Shown: positions 33,291 through 46,928 of the stretch, piece by piece
Layout: each line of letters opens with the position of its first letter
How positions within the stretch are numbered: the stretch's first letter is position 1
Assembly (NCBI GenBank): GCA_025058315.1
Contig: JANXET010000001.1
Location: 1 to 64,000 of the forward strand
Direction: 5' to 3'
From: Candidatus Bathyarchaeota archaeon
GTDB taxonomy: Archaea > Thermoproteota > Bathyarchaeia > Bathyarchaeales > Bathycorpusculaceae
Length of the DNA stretch: 64,000 nt
Position numbers and translations under genes: made by a program
The notes under the pieces: generated by a model
Seen by the model: the letters and a program-made list of their open reading frames with translations, nothing else
The model's database searches: none
What the model was told of the DNA's origin: nothing

Positions 33291-34080
33291 GCTTTGTGTA
33301 GCAGGCGCAACTGGGAGAATGGGAAGCCTCCTGATAAGGGAAGCCCTGAACAGAGGCTTTGAGGTAACAGGAGCTATCGCCGCTCCCGATGAGCCGAGCA
33401 TAGGTAGAACCCTCAGGGAGCTGGGAGTATGTAACCTCGACCTGAAAGTTTCACCGCCATCCATGCTCAAGGAAGCCCTTGGCAGAGCAGACGTTTATAT
33501 GAGCTTCACCACGCCGAAGGCGGAGCTTTCAAACCTGCCAATAGTGGCGGATGAGGGAAAACGCATAGTGATGGGAACTACAGGTTTCAGAGAAGCTGAG
33601 ATAACCCAGCTTAGCGAATACGTTTCCAGCAGGGTTCCAGCAGTGTTCTCAACAAACTTTTCAGTAGGAATAAACTTTCTCGCTGGAATGTTGAGGGCCA
33701 TTAAGACGCTTCCAAAAGAATACGATATGAGCATATTTGAAGCTCATCATACGGGTAAAATTGACGCGCCAAGCGGGACAGCCCTCACCCTAGCTAAACT
33801 GATCTCTGAGATGAGAGGCTACAGCAGGATGGTTTACGGAAGGGAGGGAGTAAGTCCTAGAAAACCCGACGAGATGGAGGTGGTCGCAGTTAGGGGAGGA
33901 GGGATCCCGGGCATTCACATAATCTTAATTGCAGGACCTCATGAAATGATCACTGTTGAGCATGTCGCATTTTCTAGAAGCATCTTCGCTCAGGGAGCCC
34001 TCCTCGCCGCTGAATGGGTTATGAAACAGACTAAACCAGGCATCTATTCCATGGAGGATGTTTTGGGGGAAACGCGATGA
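33280..34080 (+). CDS. dapB: 4-hydroxy-tetrahydrodipicolinate reductase
   Basis: 266 residues. N-terminal nucleotide-binding motif VAGATGRMGSLLIREA, then TTGFREAE, and the substrate motif EAHHTGKIDAPSGTALTLA. Reduces the DapA product with NAD(P)H. Start ATG 33280 lies within dapA, end overlaps lysC by four bases. Confidence 0.94.
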   Translation: MAIRLCVAGATGRMGSLLIREALNRGFEVTGAIAAPDEPSIGRTLRELGVCNLDLKVSPPSMLKEALGRADVYMSFTTPKAELSNLPIVADEGKRIVMGTTGFREAEITQLSEYVSSRVPAVFSTNFSVGINFLAGMLRAIKTLPKEYDMSIFEAHHTGKIDAPSGTALTLAKLISEMRGYSRMVYGREGVSPRKPDEMEVVAVRGGGIPGIHIILIAGPHEMITVEHVAFSRSIFAQGALLAAEWVMKQTKPGIYSMEDVLGETR

Positions 34081-35264
34081 GCATGGTTCCAGGCAGGGTT
34101 GTCGTTAAGTTCGGAGGGGGAGAGCTAACCTCAGGCAAAGCCTACAAGGAAGCAGCCCGAATGATAAGTAATTCAGGCTTCAGAGAAGTAGTAGTGGTAG
34201 TTTCAGCCATGAAAGGCGTCACCGACAGCCTGGTGAAATGTATAAATGAAGTGGAGGGCATTGAAGATCAGGACTATGCGGATATCGTGGCCATGGGTGA
34301 ACGGACAAGCGCTAGAATATTCAACTCAGCCCTGAGATCCGTAGGCTTGAAATCCACCTACTTTGACCCGCAACAGGAAAGATGGCCAATAATAACCGAC
34401 TCCAACTATAGAGAGGCAACACCTGACCTGAACGAGACGAGACGGAGGGTTAAGCAACACCTTGAGCCCCTGCTGGGCGAATGCATCCCTGTGGTTTGCG
34501 GCTTCATAGGGAAAGACCGAAGTGGACGCGTCACAACCCTTGGCAGGGGCGGAAGTGACATAACAGCCACACTTTTAGGCAACTGTCTAAGGGCTGAAGA
34601 GGTCATACTTGTCAAGAACACTGTAGGCGTACTCTCCGCAGATCCGAAATATGTCCCAGACGCTAAGCCGCTGGACAAGATAACCATTGAGGAAATGTTC
34701 TCACTGGCTCAGGGAGGAGCTAAAATAATACATCCAGACGCCTTAAGGTATAAGCTTCCAGGCCAAAGGATGAGGGTTATAGGCTTCCCAGGAGATCTAT
34801 CATCAAACGGCACCCAAATCGTAGGGGTGTTCAAGGCGAACCCTGTGGATATTAGGAGGCACCATGGACTAGCAGCCATAACGCTTGTAGGCGAAATTAA
34901 CCCGACGAACCTAAGTAGAACCTTGCAGGTTTTCGATGGAAGGAAAATCTTCGGCATGGGTACAAGCAGAAACTCCATAACAATATTTGTGGAGGTACGG
35001 AACCCCGAACGCGTCCTTAACCAAATATGTCGCCTGAACTACTTCAAGGCTGTAAGCCTCAAAGATAAGGTGGGCGCCATAGAGCTCGTCAGCCCTAGCT
35101 TCGTGGACTCTCCAGGATGGGTTGCCAGAATATCAGGGGCACTTGCTGAAAAATCCATAAACATAATTGAAGTTATAACTAACAAAGCTTCAATAACCAT
35201 ATTTGTGGACGAGGATAAAATGGAGCAAGCTCTAAACGCGGTTAAAGCCAAACTCAGCGAGTGA
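34077..35264 (+). CDS. lysC: Aspartate kinase (lysine-operon copy)
   Basis: 395 residues: kinase domain with VVKFGGGELTSGKAYKEA (normally KFGGTS), MGERTSARIF, TLGRGGSDITATLLG, and two C-terminal ACT domains (from ~270) for feedback control. Phosphorylates aspartate. A second aspartate kinase occurs at 38774. Its place between dapB and lysA suggests lysine-specific regulation. ATGA overlap with dapB. Confidence 0.92.
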   Translation: MSMVPGRVVVKFGGGELTSGKAYKEAARMISNSGFREVVVVVSAMKGVTDSLVKCINEVEGIEDQDYADIVAMGERTSARIFNSALRSVGLKSTYFDPQQERWPIITDSNYREATPDLNETRRRVKQHLEPLLGECIPVVCGFIGKDRSGRVTTLGRGGSDITATLLGNCLRAEEVILVKNTVGVLSADPKYVPDAKPLDKITIEEMFSLAQGGAKIIHPDALRYKLPGQRMRVIGFPGDLSSNGTQIVGVFKANPVDIRRHHGLAAITLVGEINPTNLSRTLQVFDGRKIFGMGTSRNSITIFVEVRNPERVLNQICRLNYFKAVSLKDKVGAIELVSPSFVDSPGWVARISGALAEKSINIIEVITNKASITIFVDEDKMEQALNAVKAKLSE

Positions 35265-37407: not shown

Positions 37408-38583
37408 ATGGGTTTTGAATTTTCAGAACGGGTTAAACAGATCCCACCTTACATATTCTTCGAAATAGAGAAGATTCTGGAGGAGAAGAAACGCGCCGGA
37501 GTGGACATAATATCCCTCAGCATAGGAGACCCTGACCTTCCAGCTCCAAGGTTCATACTGGAGGCCCTAGCGAAGGAAGCTGCTAAACCGGAGAATCACG
37601 GATACTCCAACAGCAGGGGGGAACGGGAATTCAGGGAAGCCGTAGCATGGTGGATGAAGGAAAGGTTCGGCGTAACCGTGGATCCGGAGAGGGAGATAAC
37701 TGCCCTAATAGGATCTAAGGAAGGTATATCCCACCTTACAAGGGCCTTCGTGAATCCTGGGGAAAAAGTGATAATCCCAGATCCAGGATATCCGGCGTAT
37801 CTTAATGGTGGAGCGCTTCTTAACGATGCACAGCCACTCTTTATGCCCTTGGAAAGGGAGAACCATTTCCTGCCGGACGTTGATTTCATAGCTTCCTCGA
37901 AAGCCAGAATCCTATACGTGAACTACCCAAACAATCCCACAGGCGCTGTGGCTGATAAATGGATTCTCAGGGAACTTGTGGAAGTTGCCCGCGACAACAA
38001 AATCATCATATGCTATGACAACGCCTATTCAGAAATAACCTACCAAGGATATAAGGCTCCAAGCATCCTTGAAGTTGAAGGAGCCATGGAAACCGCTGTG
38101 GAGCTTCACTCCTTCTCGAAAACCTTCAGCATGGCTGGTGACAGAATAGGCTTCGCGGTTGGAAACAACAGCCTCATAGAGGGCATAGTTAAAGTTAAAT
38201 CCCAAATGGATTCAGGACAACCCAAATATATTCAGCATGCCGCCGCGCAGGCCTTAAGGACTTACAGGAACGGGGAGCCTCCAGAAGAGGTTAGGAACAA
38301 CATTGCCACCTACTGGGAAAGGGTGAAATTCTTGGCAAAAAGCCTAGGCGAAATCGGGTTTGAATGCGAGGTTCCTAAAGCCACGTACTACGTGTGGGCC
38401 TACTGCGGAGGCAACTCCATGGAAACTGCGAGAAAACTTTTAGACATAGGTGTGGCGGTAACCCCAGGCATCGGTTTTGGAAAGCATGGCGAGGGATTCC
38501 TCAGGTTTTCAGCCACAAGACCAATAAATGACATCATGGAAGCTTGCAACAGACTGGCGAAGCTAAGAAACATCCTGCATTAG
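37408..38583 (+). CDS. dapL: LL-diaminopimelate aminotransferase
   Basis: 391 residues, class I PLP aminotransferase: ISLSIGDPDLPAP, YPNNPTGAV, and HSFSKTFSMAGDRIGFAVGN with the PLP lysine. DapL converts tetrahydrodipicolinate straight to LL-DAP, bypassing acylated intermediates; with dapF and lysA the pathway is complete. ATG 37408 follows AAGGGGGA. Last gene of the operon; a T-rich end (about 38591-38609) follows. Confidence 0.9.
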   Translation: MGFEFSERVKQIPPYIFFEIEKILEEKKRAGVDIISLSIGDPDLPAPRFILEALAKEAAKPENHGYSNSRGEREFREAVAWWMKERFGVTVDPEREITALIGSKEGISHLTRAFVNPGEKVIIPDPGYPAYLNGGALLNDAQPLFMPLERENHFLPDVDFIASSKARILYVNYPNNPTGAVADKWILRELVEVARDNKIIICYDNAYSEITYQGYKAPSILEVEGAMETAVELHSFSKTFSMAGDRIGFAVGNNSLIEGIVKVKSQMDSGQPKYIQHAAAQALRTYRNGEPPEEVRNNIATYWERVKFLAKSLGEIGFECEVPKATYYVWAYCGGNSMETARKLLDIGVAVTPGIGFGKHGEGFLRFSATRPINDIMEACNRLAKLRNILH

Positions 38584-38603
38584 GAGCCCCATTTTTAGAA
38601 AAT

Positions 38604-38773
38604 TTTTTATATGACATATGCGCCTGTACATAGAAAGCGTGTTGAAGCATGCCCCAATGCTTCCTGAAGCCTCAAACCATCTTCAGCTTCTTTAAATGCT
38701 ATTATTACCGCTATTAAAACTAGAACATTTTGAAATCCCATTTTCGCCTTTAACAGTTTTGGAGGCATATTTT
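38604..38773 (+). promoter_or_regulatory. Promoter and ~140-nt leader of the aspartate kinase/aromatic operon with competing hairpins
   Basis: TTTTTATATG (38604-38613) is the TATA; a start near 38634 leaves about 140 nt to ATG 38774. In it GAAGCAT (38644-38650) pairs perfectly with ATGCTTC (38657-38663), and CTGAAG (38664-38669) with CTTCAG (38681-38686). The middle arms can instead pair with each other (GCTT 38659-38662 with AAGC 38667-38670), and GAAGC 38666-38670 with GCTTC 38686-38690. A small ORF overlaps these arms. Confidence 0.5.
38649..38717 (+). CDS. Putative 22-residue Phe/Tyr-rich leader peptide
   Basis: ATG 38649 to TAA 38715-38717. The peptide begins MPQCFLKPQT and ends FKCYYYRY; Phe at 5, 12, 14, 15 and Tyr at 18, 19, 20, 22, i.e. 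8 of 22 residues aromatic. It lies 56 bp before the aspartate kinase that leads the aromatic-acid operon and overlaps the hairpins above. No strong ribosome-binding site is seen, and T-rich DNA alone favours F and Y codons, so it is a candidate only. Confidence 0.35.
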   Translation: MPQCFLKPQTIFSFFKCYYYRY

Positions 38774-40021
38774 ATGGATAAAAACGCTCCAAAGAGATTA
38801 GTCGTGAAGTATGGCGGCGCCAGCCTGGCTGACGGCGTCAGGGTTCAGATGGCCGCTGAAGCCGTGGCTAAGGAAGTTGCCAAAGGAAATAAGGTTGCCG
38901 TTGTTGTTTCAGCCATGGGGAAAACCACTGACCAGCTTTTACATGTGGCTAAAAGTGTCTCCGGAGGCAACATGGAAGGCGGAGAGTTAGATGATGTCTT
39001 AGCTATGGGTGAACGTGTAAGCGTGAGAATTTTCTCAGTGGCTTTGAAGGCTCATGGTGTAGATAACCGTTACTTTGATCCTTCCGACCCTGATTGGCCG
39101 ATAATAACGGATAAAACCTTCTCAAACGCTAACCCAATCTTGGAAGAATGCGAAAATAGAGTAGGGCGGTATGTGCTTCCAGCCTTTGAAAGGGGCACCG
39201 TACCAGTAATCGCAGGCTTCATTGGAAAAACCGTTGATGGAAAAATAACCACGCTGGGTAGGGGAGGAAGCGACACCACAGCGTTCATTCTGGCTAAAGC
39301 GTTAAGGGCAGATGAGATTATTTTGGTGACGGATGTAGATGGAATAATGACGGCGGACCCTAAAATAATACAAAACCCTCAGAAGCTCAGCCGAATCGAT
39401 GTTAACACCCTTGTTGGACTCGCTGACTCCGGAACAAAGTTTATCCATAGAAAGGCTTTGAAGTACAAGGATCCCGGCATAAACGCTAAGATAATCTCAT
39501 ACCGTCACGGCGACCTCTCCCAACAGGGCACAATTATAATAGGAGGATTAAAAATGGAGTTAGACGCTGATTTGGCAAGCTCGGCCCCGGCGGCATCAAT
39601 AACAGTTGTAGGGCTCGGGTTATCCCGCAACCCAAACATTATCATGGAACTCTTGGAAAAAGTGAAAAACTGCTCTTCACTTCTAGGCTCATCAATGGAT
39701 TACAACTCCACTGTACTCTTCGTGCCTGAAGACCCAAACCTAGAACGGCTGCTAAATGAAGTCCACGAAATAATCCTTAGAAACCAAGAGACTGTAGCCA
39801 TGTCTGTAAGGCGAAACTTGGCCTTCCTTAGGATCAGCGGCATCGGTTTGGAGGAGACCCCTGGATTAATAGGTAAAATTTCAGAACCCTTAAGAATAAA
39901 CGGGATAAACATCTTTGGAATAATGACGAACACTTCAAGCATCCTGCTCTTTGTAAACTGGGAGGACAGGGATAAAGCTCTAAGTTTAATTAGAAGCTCG
40001 CTTGGATTAAAAGGGAGGTGA
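38774..40021 (+). CDS. Aspartate kinase (aromatic-operon copy)
   Basis: About 415 residues: VVKYGGASLADG, VVVSAMGKTTDQLL, MGERVSVRIF, TTLGRGGSDTTAFI, and a C-terminal pair of ACT domains (FLRISGIGLEETPGLIGKI). ATG 38774 with GGAGG at 38761-38765 is the start; the in-frame extension to 38696 is not backed by a binding site. Followed 7 bp later by asd and then the aromatic genes, so it may make aspartyl phosphate for aspartate semialdehyde used in DHQ synthesis as well as for threonine and methionine. Confidence 0.9.
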   Translation: MDKNAPKRLVVKYGGASLADGVRVQMAAEAVAKEVAKGNKVAVVVSAMGKTTDQLLHVAKSVSGGNMEGGELDDVLAMGERVSVRIFSVALKAHGVDNRYFDPSDPDWPIITDKTFSNANPILEECENRVGRYVLPAFERGTVPVIAGFIGKTVDGKITTLGRGGSDTTAFILAKALRADEIILVTDVDGIMTADPKIIQNPQKLSRIDVNTLVGLADSGTKFIHRKALKYKDPGINAKIISYRHGDLSQQGTIIIGGLKMELDADLASSAPAASITVVGLGLSRNPNIIMELLEKVKNCSSLLGSSMDYNSTVLFVPEDPNLERLLNEVHEIILRNQETVAMSVRRNLAFLRISGIGLEETPGLIGKISEPLRINGINIFGIMTNTSSILLFVNWEDRDKALSLIRSSLGLKGR

Positions 40022-40028
40022 ATATTAA

Positions 40029-41066
40029 ATGTTGAAGGCAGCAGTTTTAGGCGCAACAGGCATGGTGGGCCAAATCTTCGTGCGGCTACTAGAGGGGCAC
40101 CCATGGTTCGAAACAGCTGTGGTTGCAGCTTCGGAAAGAAGCCGTGGACTCAAATATAAGGAGGCAACCCGCTGGCGTTTCCCAACACCCATACCTGAAA
40201 AGGTTGCAGACCTAGAGGTTGTTGATCCAACTCCAAGCGCCGTCAAAGACGTAGACATCGTTTTTTCAGCACTTCCAGCCGAAGTTGCAGGAAAAATAGA
40301 GGAAGACTTCGCTAAAGCCGGATACACTGTGTTAAGCAACGCTTCATCCCACCGCATGGACCCAGATGTTCCACTGCTGAACCCAGAAGTCAACGGGGGG
40401 CACATATCCCTAATAGATGAGCAGCGGAGAAGACGTAAGTGGGACGGAGCCATCGTAACCAACCCTAACTGTAGCACAGCCATCATGACATTGTCGCTTA
40501 AGCCCATCTACGACACTTTCGGCATAAAAAGAGTGATTGTATCAACTATGCAGGCGCTTTCAGGGGCAGGTTACCCTGGAGTGGCATCCCTTGACATCGT
40601 GGACAATGTGATACCCTACATCAGCAAAGAAGAGGAGAAAATGCAGACAGAGACGCTGAAGATCCTTGGCGAACCTTCTAAACCAGCGGACTTCAGGGTG
40701 TCGGCAAGCTGCCACAGAGTAGCCACCCTAGATGGGCATATGGAGGCTGTTTTCGTGGAGCCGAAAAATGAAGCCAGCCCAGAAGATGTTGCAAAAGCCA
40801 TGAATAACTTCATAGGCGAGCCCCAGAAGCTTAAGCTTCCTACAGCCCCCGCCAAGCCAATAGTTATAAAAACCGAGGAAGACAGGCCGCAGGTTAGACT
40901 TGACCGCATGGAAGGCGGCGGCATGAGCGTCACGGTGGGCAGGATAAGAAAAGACCCCGCTTTGGATGGGATAAAATACATAGTGCTTGGACACAACACT
41001 ATAAGGGGAGCCGCAGGCTGCAGCATCCTCAACGCAGAGTACCTAAAAGCCAAAAAATATCTATAA
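40029..41066 (+). CDS. asd: Aspartate-semialdehyde dehydrogenase
   Basis: 345 residues of the archaeal/fungal type: LGATGMVGQIFVRLLEGHPW, VTNPNCSTAIMTL with the catalytic Cys, and SCHRVATLDGHMEAVFVE with the active-site His. Reduces aspartyl phosphate with NADPH. Only copy in the window, so it must serve lysine too. It ends 4 bp before aroB', whose pathway uses aspartate semialdehyde as an aromatic precursor. Confidence 0.95.
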   Translation: MLKAAVLGATGMVGQIFVRLLEGHPWFETAVVAASERSRGLKYKEATRWRFPTPIPEKVADLEVVDPTPSAVKDVDIVFSALPAEVAGKIEEDFAKAGYTVLSNASSHRMDPDVPLLNPEVNGGHISLIDEQRRRRKWDGAIVTNPNCSTAIMTLSLKPIYDTFGIKRVIVSTMQALSGAGYPGVASLDIVDNVIPYISKEEEKMQTETLKILGEPSKPADFRVSASCHRVATLDGHMEAVFVEPKNEASPEDVAKAMNNFIGEPQKLKLPTAPAKPIVIKTEEDRPQVRLDRMEGGGMSVTVGRIRKDPALDGIKYIVLGHNTIRGAAGCSILNAEYLKAKKYL

Positions 41067-41070
41067 AAAC

Positions 41071-42150
41071 GTGAAGGAAATGAAAGAGCTCTGGCTTAAA
41101 GTGGACAAACATGTTCCACATAACCTAATTGAAAGCCTAGTTGATATGGCGGCTCAGACATGCAACGCAGTGTACTTGGCAGACTGGGAAAACGTCGATG
41201 CCTTCAAAAAGGCTGGACTGAAAATTGCCGGAAGAAACGAACGCTGCGATATCCACGTACTTGAAGATGCAGACCAAACAAAGATTACAGAGCTCAAAAA
41301 TGCAGGTAAAACAATTGCAGCAAAATTCACGGTGAAAAGCAAGGAGGACGAAGATAAAGCCGTCAAAGCGGCAAACAACGCCGACTACATAATAGTCCGC
41401 TGTACAAACTGGAAGGTAATACCTATAGAGAACCTAATAGCAAATGTCAGGGGAAAAAGCAAACTTTTAGCAGAAGTTTCAAACGTGGAAGAGGCCAAAC
41501 TTGCCCTTGAAACCCTGGAGCTCGGAGTAGACGGCATTATAATCGCCACTGCGGATCCCAAAGAGCTTTCGAAAGCAGCCTTCACAGTTAAAAGACAGCT
41601 TCCAAAACTCAAGCTTACATCAGCAAAGATTGTTGGAGTAAAACAGATAGGTACGGGAGCTAGGGTGTGCATAGACACATGCGACCTTATGAGAGCTGGG
41701 GAAGGGCTCCTCGTAGGATGCCAATCAGCATGCCTGTTCCTAGTTGAAGCTGAAGTACATGAAAACCCCTTTGTGCAGCCAAGACCATTCAGGGTTAACG
41801 CTGGACCTGTCTCGCTTTATGCCCTATGCTCTCACGAGAAGACACGATACCTTTCAGAGCTTAAGGCAGGAGATGAAGTGATGATCGTTGAAAGAGACGG
41901 CAAAGCAAGGTTGGCTAACATTGGAAGAGTAAAAATAGAGTGGAGGCCTTTACTGCTCATCGAAGCCGAACATGAAGGGAAAGTTTTCAAAACAATAACT
42001 CAAAACGCTGAGACGATAAGGCTTGTAGCTGAAGAAGACTCCATACCCGTAACAGAGCTTAAGCCAGGCGACAAGGTCCTAGTACATCTTTCCGAAAGTG
42101 GCAGACACTTCGGAACTCTTGTGAAGGATGAAATGGTGGTAGAGCTCTGA
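41071..42150 (+). CDS. aroB': 3-dehydroquinate synthase II (archaeal)
   Basis: 359 residues, family of M. jannaschii MJ1249: LWLKVDKHVPHNLIESLVD, DYIIVRCTNWKVIPIENLIA, GTGARVCIDTCDLMRAGEG, VNAGPVSLYALC, YLSELKAGDEVMIV. It oxidatively deaminates and cyclises the C7 sugar made from an aldolase reaction with aspartate semialdehyde, replacing the DAHP route. That first aldolase (MJ0400-like) is not in this window. GTG 41071; overlaps aroD by four bases if CTG 42147 is used. Confidence 0.93.
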   Translation: MKEMKELWLKVDKHVPHNLIESLVDMAAQTCNAVYLADWENVDAFKKAGLKIAGRNERCDIHVLEDADQTKITELKNAGKTIAAKFTVKSKEDEDKAVKAANNADYIIVRCTNWKVIPIENLIANVRGKSKLLAEVSNVEEAKLALETLELGVDGIIIATADPKELSKAAFTVKRQLPKLKLTSAKIVGVKQIGTGARVCIDTCDLMRAGEGLLVGCQSACLFLVEAEVHENPFVQPRPFRVNAGPVSLYALCSHEKTRYLSELKAGDEVMIVERDGKARLANIGRVKIEWRPLLLIEAEHEGKVFKTITQNAETIRLVAEEDSIPVTELKPGDKVLVHLSESGRHFGTLVKDEMVVEL

Positions 42151-42830
42151 CGGTCAGAATATGCGCCTCCATAATGCCGCGAAATGTTGAGCACGCGTTA
42201 AAACTTATCGATGAAGCTGAAAACCAGCAGGCAGACTTCATCGAAGTGAGGTTAGATCTACTTAAACGATGTGAGAAACTAGTAGACATCGCAAATTCTG
42301 CAAGCACTCCGTTGATTGCGACAAATAGGCCTACATGGTGTAGTGGAAAATTCACCGGACCAGAGACGGAGCGCAAAAACATGCTGCTACATGCTTGTCA
42401 AAGTGGATTCGAATACGTGGACGTTGAAGTTGAAGCTTCATGGCTTAGGGAAGCCATAAAACAGCTGAAGGAGTCAGGGGCTAAACCCATAGTTTCCTTC
42501 CATGATTTTGAAAAAACCCCGGAAAAAGCCGTGCTACAGCAGATCCTTGAAAAGGAAATTTCAAACGAAGCTGATGTATGCAAAATAGTGACGACGGCGC
42601 GGAGTCTCATGGACAACTTAACCCTTCTGAGTTTCCTCTGGGAGGAGAAGGAGAAGGCCAAAATCGTGTGCTTTGCAATGGGACCGCATGGTAAGCCGTC
42701 CAGGATTTTATCTCCAATTTTCGGAGGGTACTTCACCATTGCAGCCTTAAAAAGAGGTGAAGAAACAGCTCCTGGACAAATGACCCTCCAAGAGATGAAA
42801 ACAGCCTACAAAGCTCTAGGAGAACTTTAA
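42147..42830 (+). CDS. aroD: 3-dehydroquinate dehydratase, type I
   Basis: Type I class: strand VRICASIM, FIEVRLDLLK, PIVSFHDFEKTP (catalytic His region), DVCKIVTTARS (Schiff-base Lys) and FAMGPHGKPSRILSPIFG. The first beta strand (VRICASI) lies upstream of the first ATG (42174); the only in-frame start covering it is CTG 42147, preceded by GGTGGT (42135-42140) and overlapping the aroB' stop. Non-ATG/GTG/TTG initiation is therefore proposed. Confidence 0.9.
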   Translation: MTVRICASIMPRNVEHALKLIDEAENQQADFIEVRLDLLKRCEKLVDIANSASTPLIATNRPTWCSGKFTGPETERKNMLLHACQSGFEYVDVEVEASWLREAIKQLKESGAKPIVSFHDFEKTPEKAVLQQILEKEISNEADVCKIVTTARSLMDNLTLLSFLWEEKEKAKIVCFAMGPHGKPSRILSPIFGGYFTIAALKRGEETAPGQMTLQEMKTAYKALGEL

Positions 42831-43690
42831 TGATCGCTGGAACAACGAAAGTTTTCTGCGTTATAGGAGATCCTATTGAGCATTCGCTTAGCCCGGCAAT
42901 GCATAATGCGGCCTTTAGACACCTAGGACTCGACGCGGTTTTCGTGGCCTTCAGGGTGGATAGGAAAAACCTTGAACACGCTGTTAAGGGTATCCGCAGT
43001 TTAGGCATCGCCGGAGTCAACGTCACCATGCCCCATAAAACAGCCATAATCAGCTACTTGGACGAGTTGAACAAGGAGGCAGAGTTCGTAGGAGCCGTTA
43101 ACACTGTGCTTAACGCTGAAGGGAAACTTGTAGGGTTCAACACCGACGGGATTGGCGCAGTGAGGGCTCTCAAGGAAAGTGGATTAACATTAAAAGGGAA
43201 GAAAATTGTTTTAATTGGAGCTGGAGGCGCAGGTAAAGCCATAGCCTTCCAGTTGGCGCAAGAGGCATGCGAACTTAGGATTCTTAACAGGGACGGGGAA
43301 AAGGCAAAGCAGCTGGCCGCTAAACTGGAAAGAAAATTCAACACTAAAATTTTAGGCAACAGCCTCTCACAAGCCACCCTTAAAGAATGCATTAAAGATG
43401 CTGATGTGCTTATTAACGCTACATCCGTGGGTATGCAACCCAACCACAATCAAACACCTGTAGACAGGGAGCTGCTGAAGCCTGGACTTACAGTAATGGA
43501 CATAGTTTACAATCCAGTGGAAACAAGACTTATCAGAGAGGCAAAGTCTGCTGGAGCCAACGTGGTATACGGAACTGAGATGCTTATCTTTCAAGGAGCC
43601 GCTTCCTTTGAAATATGGTGGAAAACCCCAGCTCCTGTGGACGTTATGAGGAAAGCATTGAGTGATAAGCTCTGCCGGGGAGGAGCTTAA
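42830..43690 (+). CDS. aroE: Shikimate dehydrogenase
   Basis: 286 residues: VIGDPIEHSLSPAMHNAAF, GVNVTMPHKTAIISYLDEL with the catalytic Lys, GFNTDGIGAVRAL, IGAGGAGKAIAFQL for NADP(H), and MDIVYNPVETRLI. ATG 42830 overlaps the aroD stop (TAATG). Reduces 3-dehydroshikimate. Confidence 0.95.
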   Translation: MIAGTTKVFCVIGDPIEHSLSPAMHNAAFRHLGLDAVFVAFRVDRKNLEHAVKGIRSLGIAGVNVTMPHKTAIISYLDELNKEAEFVGAVNTVLNAEGKLVGFNTDGIGAVRALKESGLTLKGKKIVLIGAGGAGKAIAFQLAQEACELRILNRDGEKAKQLAAKLERKFNTKILGNSLSQATLKECIKDADVLINATSVGMQPNHNQTPVDRELLKPGLTVMDIVYNPVETRLIREAKSAGANVVYGTEMLIFQGAASFEIWWKTPAPVDVMRKALSDKLCRGGA

Positions 43691-43692
43691 CA

Positions 43693-44565
43693 TTGAAGGC
43701 CAAAGCAACAAGCTATGGCGCAGCAACTATAGTAAACGCCATTGCCATTGGCAAGGGAGCAGCCTTCGGAGTTAAACTCTGGACTAAAGCAGAGGTCAAG
43801 TTGACGAACAACCCCGGAGAGGTTAAGGGTGAAATCACCTCAGATCCATTCGAAAGCACAGTGCTCATAGAGAAAACTGTGAAGAAAGTGTTAGAGCACT
43901 TCAAACTCGCCAATGAATTTGGGGCAGAGGTGAAAACCTGGTCGAACATTCCCATAGCGCGGGGACTTAAAAGCAGCAGCGCAGCAGCTAATGCCATATC
44001 CCTAGCCACAGTGGCTGCGTTAAAAATGGAAGTGGACGACCTCAAAGTAGTTAACCTAGGCGTTGACGGAGCCATAGATGCAAAGGTAACGATAACAGGA
44101 GCATTCGATGATGCTTGCGCCTCCTACTTCGGAGGCATAGTTGTCACAGATAACTTCAAAAGGAAAATTGTGAAACGATGTGAAGCTCCTGAAAACCTCA
44201 CCGTGCTCTTTCATATTCCACACGTGAAAGCCTACACAAGCAAGGTTAACGTTCAAAAAACAGAAGTAATCGCGCCAATTATCAAGATAGCTTATAAAGA
44301 AGCCATAAAAGGAAACTTTTGGCAAGCCCTAACATTAAACGGGCTGATCTACTCCTCAGCTTTGGGATATAACCCTGCAATAACCATAGACGCGCTTACA
44401 GCTGGAGCCATCGCCGCCGGATTATGCGGCAAGGGACCAGCGGTTACGGCTGTAGTGACGGAAGAAAAAGTTGACCAGGTTAAAGAGGCTTTGATGAGTT
44501 ATGAGGGAGAAATTATAGCTACACGAATAAACAACGAGAAAGCCAGAGTTGAATCTTATGGTTGA
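43693..44565 (+). CDS. aroK': Archaeal shikimate kinase (GHMP family)
   Basis: 290 residues. Not related to bacterial AroK: GHMP-kinase motif IARGLKSSSAAANAISLATV near 90-109, N-terminal SYGAATIVNAIAIGKGAA, and TGAFDDACASYFGGIVVTDN. Phosphorylates shikimate. TTG 43693 is preceded by GGGAGGAG. It overlaps aroA slightly. Confidence 0.93.
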   Translation: MKAKATSYGAATIVNAIAIGKGAAFGVKLWTKAEVKLTNNPGEVKGEITSDPFESTVLIEKTVKKVLEHFKLANEFGAEVKTWSNIPIARGLKSSSAAANAISLATVAALKMEVDDLKVVNLGVDGAIDAKVTITGAFDDACASYFGGIVVTDNFKRKIVKRCEAPENLTVLFHIPHVKAYTSKVNVQKTEVIAPIIKIAYKEAIKGNFWQALTLNGLIYSSALGYNPAITIDALTAGAIAAGLCGKGPAVTAVVTEEKVDQVKEALMSYEGEIIATRINNEKARVESYG

Positions 44566-45847
44566 AGTCACCATTAAACCGGCGAAGTCCTTGAAGGGAG
44601 AGGTTGAGGCTCCACCCTCTAAATCCTACACGCATAGGATGCTTATCGCAGCCCTCCTCTCTCAAGGCAAAACAGTGATAGAGAAGCCATTAATCTCAGA
44701 TGACACGTTGGCAACTCTTGAAGCGATAGAGGCTTTCGGGGCTGAGGTAAAGCAGAATCGTGAAGTATGGGAGGTTGCTGGACAGCTGCCTCTAAAAACG
44801 CCAGCTGAGCCTGTAAATTGCCGAGAATCAGGGGCTACACTGCGCTTCATGATACCTGTTGCCGCTTTAGCTATGGGAGAAACCAGGTTCATCAGGGGGC
44901 ATGGGCTAAGTAAAAGGCCAATAGAACCGCTGCTTGAGAGCTTAAGCCAGCTGGATGTGAAAATCAAGTACAACCCTGAAAAACCCCATTTAATAGCGGT
45001 TCAAGGTGGAGGAATAAAAGGTGGAAGAACAACAATCCGTGGGGACATAAGCTCCCAATTTATATCAGGACTAATGTTAGCTTGCCCCATGGCTCAAGAG
45101 GACACCGAAATAGCGCTTACAACCCCTGTAGAGTCTAAAAGTTACATTGAAATGACTGAGGAGGTCCTGTCTAGACACTCTGTTAGAGTTAAAATTTTAG
45201 AGAGTCTCATCCAAGTTCCAAGCGGGCAAGTGTACAAGCCTACGGGACACAGGGTTCCTGGAGATTTCTCGTCGGCGGCTTATCTGCTTGCAGCCGCGGC
45301 AATAACCTCCTCAAACATAAAAATTAGAAACCTTAACTATGCCACTAAGCAGGGCGACAGGGCTATTGTGGAAATACTGGAAAAGGCGGGTTTGGAGGTA
45401 AATATAGGCTGGGACTTCGTCGAAGTTAAAGGCTCACTTTGCAGGGCGGTAGATGTGAACGCAAAGGACATACCTGACCTTGTGCCCGCGTGCGCAGCAA
45501 TCGCATGTTACACGAAGGGTACATCAACCATATACAACGCTGGGAGATTAAGGTACAAGGAGTCCGATAGGCTAAAAGCCCTCTACACAGAGTTCACCAA
45601 AATGGGCGCTGACATAAAAATAGAAGGGGACACCTTAAGGATAAAGGGGCCATGCAGGCTTCACGGTGCAACAATAGACCCGTACAGCGACCATAGAATA
45701 GCCATGGCATGCACGGTTGCAGCCCTAGGCGCCAGCTCTGAAACAGTGATCTTGAACGCTGAATGTGTGAGAAAGTCTTATCCACAGTTCTTTAGAGACT
45801 TAAGCCTAATGGGGGCAGATATTGTTGGCGGCGAACTCTATCGGTAA
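44558..45847 (+). CDS. aroA: 3-phosphoshikimate 1-carboxyvinyltransferase (EPSP synthase)
   Basis: About 429 residues: PPSKSYTHRMLIAALLSQG (substrate Lys-Ser), NCRESGATLRFMIPVAAL, ISSQFISGLMLACPM, PGDFSSAAYLLAAAAI, YKESDRLKAL and DPYSDHRIAMACTVAAL. Start ATG 44558 is preferred over TTG 44549. Overlaps aroC by 26 bases. Confidence 0.95.
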   Translation: MVEVTIKPAKSLKGEVEAPPSKSYTHRMLIAALLSQGKTVIEKPLISDDTLATLEAIEAFGAEVKQNREVWEVAGQLPLKTPAEPVNCRESGATLRFMIPVAALAMGETRFIRGHGLSKRPIEPLLESLSQLDVKIKYNPEKPHLIAVQGGGIKGGRTTIRGDISSQFISGLMLACPMAQEDTEIALTTPVESKSYIEMTEEVLSRHSVRVKILESLIQVPSGQVYKPTGHRVPGDFSSAAYLLAAAAITSSNIKIRNLNYATKQGDRAIVEILEKAGLEVNIGWDFVEVKGSLCRAVDVNAKDIPDLVPACAAIACYTKGTSTIYNAGRLRYKESDRLKALYTEFTKMGADIKIEGDTLRIKGPCRLHGATIDPYSDHRIAMACTVAALGASSETVILNAECVRKSYPQFFRDLSLMGADIVGGELYR

Positions 45848-46928
45848 AGCCTTCACAGTAACATGCTTCGGAGAAAGCCATGGTAAATGCTTAGGTGTGG
45901 TTATAGATGGGTGTCCAGCTGGACTTCTGCTCTCCGAAGACGACATCCAAGCAGAATTGGATAAACGTGTTCCGCCAAAGCTGGAGTTAACATCAGGAAG
46001 AGTTGAAAGAGACATTGTAGAAATCCTTTCAGGGGTTTTTGAAGGACATACTACAGGCGCACCAGTCTGCATGATCGTATTAAATAAAGAGGCTGTTTCT
46101 TCAGAATATAACGCCATAAAGGATTTACCTAGACCTGGACACGCTGACTACCCCGCACACGTTAGGTATGGAGGATTTAACGATTACAGGGGAGGGGGAA
46201 GGTTTTCAGGCAGGATCACCGTTTCGCTTGTTATGGCAGGAGCTGTCGCTAAGAAGCTACTACGCATTTTTGGCGTTGAAGTGTACGCATACGCCAAGGC
46301 TATAGGTAAAGTCAAAATTGATGAGAATGTAACGCTGGAGCAGATCAGGGAAAACACGTATAAAAACCCGGTAAGATGCCCAGATCTTTCATGTGCAGAG
46401 AAAATGGAGCAAGCCATAATTGAGGCTCGAAGTGAAGGAGACAGTCTTGGAGGCATAGTGGAATGTGTAGCCTTGAACGTCCCAGCAGGGGTAGGTGACC
46501 CTGTGTTCGACGCTTTGGACGCAGATATTGCTAAGGCCATTTTCGCCATACCAGCTGTGAAGGGAGTGGAGTTCGGCGCAGGATTCAGCTCCGCCACCAT
46601 GAGAGGGTCAGAGAATAACGATGCATACGCCATATGCGGCGGCAAGATAGTAACTTTAACAAACAATGCAGGCGGGATACTTGGCGGCATATCCACGGGA
46701 ATGCCTATTGTTGTTAGGGCAGCCATCAAGCCTACACCTTCTATACCTAAAAAACAAAAAACCATAGACCTGTCAAAACTTGATGTGGCAGTATTAGAGG
46801 TAAAGGGACGACATGACCCATGCATAGTTCCCAAGGCGGTCTCCGTGATAGAATCCACAGTGGCTATTGTAATAGCGGATCACATGATAAGGGCTGGCAT
46901 AATACCTAGGGTTTTATGGAGAAAGTGA
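45822..46928 (+). CDS. aroC: Chorismate synthase
   Basis: 368 residues with the FMN-enzyme signatures FTVTCFGESHGKCLGVVIDG, RPGHADYPAHVRYGG, DYRGGGRFSGRITVSLVMAG, and NNAGGILGGISTGMPIVVRAAIK. TTG 45822 is preceded by GGGGG (45811-45815) at six bases. Starts inside aroA; followed 6 bp later by chorismate mutase. Confidence 0.95.
   Translation: MLAANSIGKAFTVTCFGESHGKCLGVVIDGCPAGLLLSEDDIQAELDKRVPPKLELTSGRVERDIVEILSGVFEGHTTGAPVCMIVLNKEAVSSEYNAIKDLPRPGHADYPAHVRYGGFNDYRGGGRFSGRITVSLVMAGAVAKKLLRIFGVEVYAYAKAIGKVKIDENVTLEQIRENTYKNPVRCPDLSCAEKMEQAIIEARSEGDSLGGIVECVALNVPAGVGDPVFDALDADIAKAIFAIPAVKGVEFGAGFSSATMRGSENNDAYAICGGKIVTLTNNAGGILGGISTGMPIVVRAAIKPTPSIPKKQKTIDLSKLDVAVLEVKGRHDPCIVPKAVSVIESTVAIVIADHMIRAGIIPRVLWRK

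Follow-up and report, generated by a model that had tools for sequence, protein, structure and literature searches.

The stretch of DNA analyzed here, referred to as the window, is 64,000 nucleotides from Candidatus Bathyarchaeota archaeon and includes an operon for aromatic amino acid synthesis. Ahead of this operon is a very short reading frame, and the question that it raises is whether an archaeon could adjust aromatic synthesis to the supply of Phe and Tyr by means of a leader peptide. A preliminary description of the locus had proposed this on the basis of a 22-codon ORF with four Phe and four Tyr and of four complementary arms that could form competing hairpins. Comparison with related genomes makes it fairly probable that this region acts in cis as a leader-peptide sensor, with ribosome-mediated attenuation by Phe/Tyr supply, though the arrangement of the conserved helices differs from the one first proposed.

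Leader ORF and aromatic operon

The ORF itself was borne out by direct reading of the sequence: Phe is found at codons 5, 12, 14, and 15 and Tyr at codons 18, 19, 20, and 22 of an ATG-to-TAA frame placed between an LL-diaminopimelate aminotransferase-like gene, which ends at 38583, and the aspartokinase gene (Table 1). Seven of the last 14 codons are aromatic, a score reached by none of 300 dinucleotide shuffles of the ORF's own upstream region.

Table 1. Features of the leader region and the aromatic operon in the window
Feature	Position	Strand	Basis
BRE AGAAAATT and TATA box TTTTATAT (38605-38612)	38597..38612	+	Same arrangement in most of 72 loci
P1 arm 1, GAAGC, directly before leader ATG; counterpart of class-I GGTTCGAAGC	38644..38648	+	Position and sequence match 45 class-I leaders
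Putative leader peptide ORF, MPQCFLKPQTIFSFFKCYYYRY, stop TAA	38649..38717	+	Direct reading; aromatic leader ORF in relatives; selection on aromatic identity
Aromatic cluster F-S-F-F-K-C-Y-Y-Y-R-Y, proposed stall codons	38682..38714	+	Counterpart of cluster in relatives' last 14 codons
P1 arm 2, GCTTC, within Ser-Phe codons AGC TTC	38686..38690	+	Same codons as class-I arm 2 (AGC TTC GAC)
Weak P2 counterpart, TAAAACTA (38715-38722) with CAGTTTTG (38754-38761)	38715..38761	+	7 pairs at best
Alternative hairpin, GCCTTTAA/TTTGGAGGC-side, burying Shine-Dalgarno GGAGG (38761-38765)	38746..38766	+	Minimum-free-energy fold
Aspartokinase, first structural gene of aromatic operon	38774..40021	+	PF00696; NF005159 above cut-off
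Aspartate-semialdehyde dehydrogenase (ASD), DHQ synthase II, AroD, AroE, archaeal shikimate kinase, AroA, AroC	40029..46928	+	Pfam and NCBIfam matches

According to the Pfam and NCBIfam gene assignments, the product of the operon is the precursor of Phe and Tyr. In archaea with DHQ synthase II, aspartate semialdehyde is the precursor of the aromatic ring, so the aspartokinase and ASD belong to the aromatic route. A second aspartokinase (34077-35264) is encoded in a lysine-type cluster upstream of the aromatic operon. The longest ORF would place the aspartokinase start at the in-frame ATG 38696, which was rejected, and ATG 38774, behind the GGAGG, is most likely the start because the alignment to relatives begins there. 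In other families of the class (L121, L123, and L129-L135), an additional gene about 265 codons long, which probably encodes the ADH synthase of the aspartate-based aromatic route, was found between ASD and DHQ synthase II; it is missing from this place in the window operon (40029-42150 compared).

Conservation of the leader ORF

With the leader DNA as query, no relative was found by sequence alone, and leaders were therefore located via the aspartokinase. Of the 163 genomes of the order, 76 yielded an ortholog of the aromatic aspartokinase, and about half have no such gene. Upstream DNA was read for 74 loci, two of which (L018 and L038) are clipped by contig ends to a degree that makes full judgement of them impossible, and 73 regions were scored. 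When an aromatic leader was defined as an ORF with at least six Phe, Tyr, or Trp among its last 14 codons, one was present in 70 of the 73 scored regions, compared to 1.6% of dinucleotide shuffles. One of the clipped loci (L038) scored zero, and the part that is visible still reads MMFYRYRFFFYR. The same test applied to control genes identified leaders at 0 of 19 HisG and 0 of 7 other aspartokinase loci. Conserved Trp- or His-rich leaders were likewise not found at 30 TrpE and 30 HisG loci of the same order, a weak negative given the mechanical calling of gene starts and the possibility that TrpE does not head its operon.

The peptides end in sequences such as SFDYYFYYFN (L007), SFSYFFYN (L042), SGYWFAYTFTY (L020), and SGYWYIFSY (L021), and those of class I share the tail SF-x-Y-x-FYYYF. 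The order of the aromatic residues differs greatly between families, and the aromatic codons mostly extend to the last one to three codons of the leader. The N-terminal half of the peptide is not conserved; what is conserved is the aromatic content and its position adjoining the helix P2 described below.

Selection on the aromatic codons

Single-base changes at aromatic codons were counted between nearest neighbors over the last 12 codons. Of these changes, 34 were synonymous, 14 were Phe/Tyr exchanges, 25 involved other residues, and none involved a stop; for the same classes, neutral change would give 17%, 8%, 67%, and 8%, respectively. This comparison indicates that selection preserves the aromatic identity of the leader residues while the codons vary. 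At several positions Phe or Tyr was replaced by Trp. The leaders also showed a bias in codon choice: Tyr was encoded by TAT in 73% of cases in the leaders and 33% in the gene downstream (p 3e-18), and Phe by TTT in 56% and 41%, respectively (p 9e-5). U-ending codons may be read more slowly, and part of the bias could stem from a leader that is A+U-rich and low in structure.

These data also bear on whether the aromatic peptide itself, or free Phe/Tyr, stalls the ribosome as in the nascent-peptide arrest of TnaC. The common class-I tail is what an arrest peptide would be expected to have, but the great variation in aromatic order between families and the enrichment of U-ending codons fit slowing at the level of the codon better, and an arrest peptide appears to be a distinctly improbable explanation.

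Promoter position

The comparison also established the position of the promoter. In most of the 72 loci the BRE and TATA box are 42-50 nt upstream of the leader start (mean 46.7, sd 7.0), and the BRE is purine/A-rich at these loci. Given the usual archaeal spacing, transcription in the window would start at about 38634-38640, just before arm 1 of the helix P1. The preliminary description depended on transcription starting ahead of the leader, and the conserved TATA box agrees with this, with the start site itself placed by inference. A second TATA-like stretch at the leader end, CTATTAAAAC, was rejected as a promoter; unlike the upstream TATA box, it showed no conservation in the relatives that were read.

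RNA helices in the leaders

Two helices were identified with RNAalifold on 45 class-I leaders. In P1, the 5' end GGUUCGAAGC, adjoining the leader AUG, pairs with the Ser-Phe codons AGCUUCGA. In P2, GCCCAGAAC, which starts at the stop codon, pairs with GUUCUGGGC upstream of the aspartokinase Shine-Dalgarno site. Among these 45 leaders, pairing was kept in 99.7% of cells for P1, where variation was mostly by G-U exchange, and in 98.0% for P2, and less than half of the cells paired in slid versions of the helices. Both helices had G-U and compensatory exchanges, and their covariation was greater than in all 500 shuffles, which do not remove relatedness. The P2 arms of other families are in the same place and are unrelated in sequence (GGAGAAACC/GGTTTCTCC, GGAAGAGC/GCTCTTCC, GAGGAAAGGGCT/GGCTCTTTCCTC, and GCTTCGAAACC/GGTTTCGAAGC), and the mean z of P2 across all families was -2.9. 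The preliminary description had named alignment of the leader among relatives as a check and the loss of both ORF and pairing in relatives as grounds for abandoning its proposal. The aromatic cluster is conserved, the helices covary, and relatives keep both the ORF and the pairing.

An alternative is that P1 and P2 serve a repressor as DNA operators, with the ORF a by-product. Archaeal operators often take the form of inverted repeats close to the transcription start, and arm 1 contains the palindrome TTCGAA. However, variation that is largely G-U exchange preserves RNA pairing and breaks DNA symmetry, the arms are wholly different between families, and selection on the aromatic codons would be left unexplained. 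We regard operators as very unlikely.

In every family P2 runs from the leader stop codon to a point just short of the Shine-Dalgarno site, and the distance from stop to Shine-Dalgarno site is 45.5 nt (sd 5.3). This span is also what would be expected if P2 brought the leader stop near the Shine-Dalgarno site of the aspartokinase for re-initiation. Under such translational coupling, full translation of the leader would favor expression, the reverse of attenuation, but synthesis would then rise with plentiful aromatics, which is senseless for a biosynthetic operon, and the aromatic cluster would be unneeded. Coupling is thus an unlikely role for P2, which is treated below as a helix that would hold the operon down.

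P1 and P2 are not mutually competing in most families. An alternative in which arm 2 pairs with arm 3, like the 2:3 pairing of the preliminary description, was found only in parts of families f6 and f9 (-21.5 kcal/mol in L084), so the mechanism may differ by family. A U tract follows the hairpin in f12, some f9, and some f6 leaders, and there is none behind the class-I P2. Most f6 leaders (for example, L042 and L044) also have CTGGG(C/T) at the 5' end. This motif repeats P2 arm 4 and could pair with arm 3 as well (U:T pairing z -1.8); it is lost in L047. Among the outlying leaders, the most switch-like is L126, in which GAGCCGG...CCGGCTT...GGAATCC...CCGGCTC just after the leader stop permits several mutually exclusive hairpins.

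In the window, P1 has only 5 pairs, and the counterpart of P2 (Table 1) is short compared with the hairpins at this place in relatives, which mostly have 8-18 pairs. The leader fold is -16.3 kcal/mol (z -2.5), with 2 of 200 shuffles as good. The alternative hairpin, at -10 kcal/mol (z -1.7), is the only terminator-like pattern in the region. With so few pairs in either helix and the Shine-Dalgarno site buried, the window is a weak example of a clear leader family. The alternating arms noted previously are present in the window (GAAGCAT 38644-38650/ATGCTTC 38657-38663 and CTGAAG 38664-38669/CTTCAG 38681-38686), but the scheme built on them inside the ORF, 1:2 plus 3:4 pairing versus 2:3, is not conserved: G022 and G006, the two nearest relatives, lack these local hairpins. 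The conserved P1 corresponds to the outermost of these arms, and the conserved P2 is beyond the stop codon. The central idea of the preliminary description, that a peptide coding for Phe and Tyr regulates the aromatic operon, gains strong support from the conservation of the ORF, aromatic cluster, promoter position, and helices in relatives; its four-arm scheme does not.

Distribution of the leaders

A covariance model of the class-I leader had exactly one match per genome in 52 of the 257 genomes of the class. Fifty of the 52 matches were directly before the aromatic aspartokinase, five of these 50 being from f6 genomes outside model building; of the remaining two, one (G086) was at threshold and was not assigned, and one (G093) was on a contig without the gene. 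This indicates specificity for the aromatic operon. A single copy per genome in front of this operon is also not what would be expected of a functional small protein acting in trans. Constraint at the peptide level is in keeping with such a protein, but the constraint is on aromatic content and on position next to P2, with the N-terminal half unconserved, and a trans-acting protein is the least probable of the explanations considered.

Leaders of the proposed sensor type extend beyond the order of the window. In families f12, f13, f14, and f19 an aromatic leader precedes the aspartokinase or ASD; the leaders of f14 and f19 are weaker (six aromatics each). The f12 leaders are the most bacterial-looking, with FNPYYYYYYYCFF directly before the stop, followed by a 14-pair hairpin and a U tract. 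Families f10, f15, f18, and f21 have the same aspartokinase and no aromatic leader. Compared with Rfam, none of seven relatives had a match that reached the gathering threshold, and the window had only a chance-level hit.

Two other arrangements were observed in these families. In f10, f15, f18, and f21 (L121-L123, L129-L135, and L137), a conserved tandem element, approximately GGTGAYNNNNTTTTCGGTGATNNNGTTTA, is found about 100-190 nt upstream of the aspartokinase. It has no Rfam match. With no reading frame preserved, this element may function as RNA or be an operator. In G190 (f13), the operon does not have an aspartokinase at its head, and a leader-like ORF, MTGIAEAAKQWRSGFFYFYYNK, precedes ASD (L127, 2910-2978 of the reverse-complemented locus).

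Ribosome position and the proposed mechanism

The effect of a ribosome on the leader was modeled by folding each leader with a ribosome-sized mask. For P2 in class I the values were 0.89 unmasked, 0.27 with the ribosome at codon -2, and 0.04 at codon -1. P2 was lost only when the A site had come as close to the stop as about two or three codons. The modeling thus gave no support to the idea that a stall anywhere in the cluster opens P2; a ribosome stalled earlier would sit over arm 2 of P1, and P2 would stay intact. A general model in which the ribosome reveals a hidden Shine-Dalgarno site was likewise not supported, as modeled accessibility had no clear response to ribosome position. The site is buried in the window and in G006, and since in the window the Shine-Dalgarno sequence is itself within a hairpin, translational control is plausible in that genome.

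In the mechanism that we propose, the mRNA would start just upstream of the leader, and a ribosome would translate the short peptide. When charged Phe- or Tyr-tRNA is scarce, the ribosome would slow or stall at the Phe/Tyr cluster, and its position would set whether P1 and P2 form. With ample aromatics the ribosome would complete the leader and depart, allowing P1 and P2 to form and holding the operon down. With aromatics short, a ribosome held on the leader would block P1 and, at the last codons, P2, and the operon would be expressed. The sensor part of this mechanism is well supported by the comparisons. Translation of the leader, stalling, and an inhibitory role for P2 are what the arrangement suggests, and the direction of the response is taken from the logic of the pathway. 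The output could be through early termination or through limiting translation of the aspartokinase.

Relation to known regulatory systems

The closest parallel is with the ribosome-mediated transcription attenuators of bacterial amino acid operons, of the trpL, pheL, and hisL type (Yanofsky 1981, cited in PMC8576121 and PMC7858274). As in those, a short ORF rich in codons for the end product is just behind the promoter, RNA helices overlap its codons, and a hairpin precedes the first structural gene, followed by a U tract in f12 and some f9 leaders. The leaders described here differ from those in several ways: the host and the promoter are archaeal; arm 1 is formed by the mRNA 5' end and not by the regulatory codons; unlike the helices of the bacterial switch, P1 and P2 are mostly not mutually exclusive; and the hairpin begins right at the stop codon, with no U tract behind it in class I. 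The leaders also head an aspartokinase, because archaea with DHQ synthase II build the aromatic ring from aspartate semialdehyde.

In the translation attenuator ermC, with its leader peptide ermCL (PMC10219788), a ribosome on the leader peptide alters mRNA structure before the regulated gene, as is proposed here, and the burial of the Shine-Dalgarno site in a hairpin in the window is similar. However, the signal for ermC is a drug, where here it would be amino acid supply, and in most families the Shine-Dalgarno site is outside P2 and did not change clearly in the modeling. Control of aromatic amino acid synthesis in an archaeon has a parallel in Methanothermobacter. There, TrpY is a DNA-binding repressor of aromatic amino acid synthesis, and unlike the leaders it involves neither a leader peptide nor RNA helices.

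Attenuation by a translating ribosome requires coupled transcription and translation. Such coupling has been documented in archaea (PMC7858274 and PMC8576121; French et al. 2007, cited in PMC7858274). The preliminary description had noted that ribosome-mediated attenuation is not established in archaea, and no archaeal amino acid leader-peptide attenuator was found in the open full-text literature, to which the search was confined. Potential uORFs have been detected by ribosome profiling in Methanosarcina mazei, in a paper whose text does not mention attenuation (PMC11456600), and a paper describing a tool makes the general statement that leader peptides regulate in archaea too, with no amino acid example in the portion considered here (PMC10219788).

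On balance, the data incline us to the view that attenuation by ribosomes sensing charged tRNA exists in archaea, and that it is old, widespread in this class, and non-bacterial in geometry. That geometry would consist of a helix between the 5' end and codons of the leader plus a hairpin that begins at the stop codon and would be accessible only to a ribosome that has arrived at the last codons. If confirmed, leader-peptide control of amino acid synthesis would reach a second domain of life, and the aspartokinase, the entry to the aspartate-based aromatic pathway, would be shown to be tied to the supply of Phe and Tyr. The leaders would also serve as dozens of natural variants for studying how a signal of this kind is read by archaeal RNA polymerase or ribosomes.
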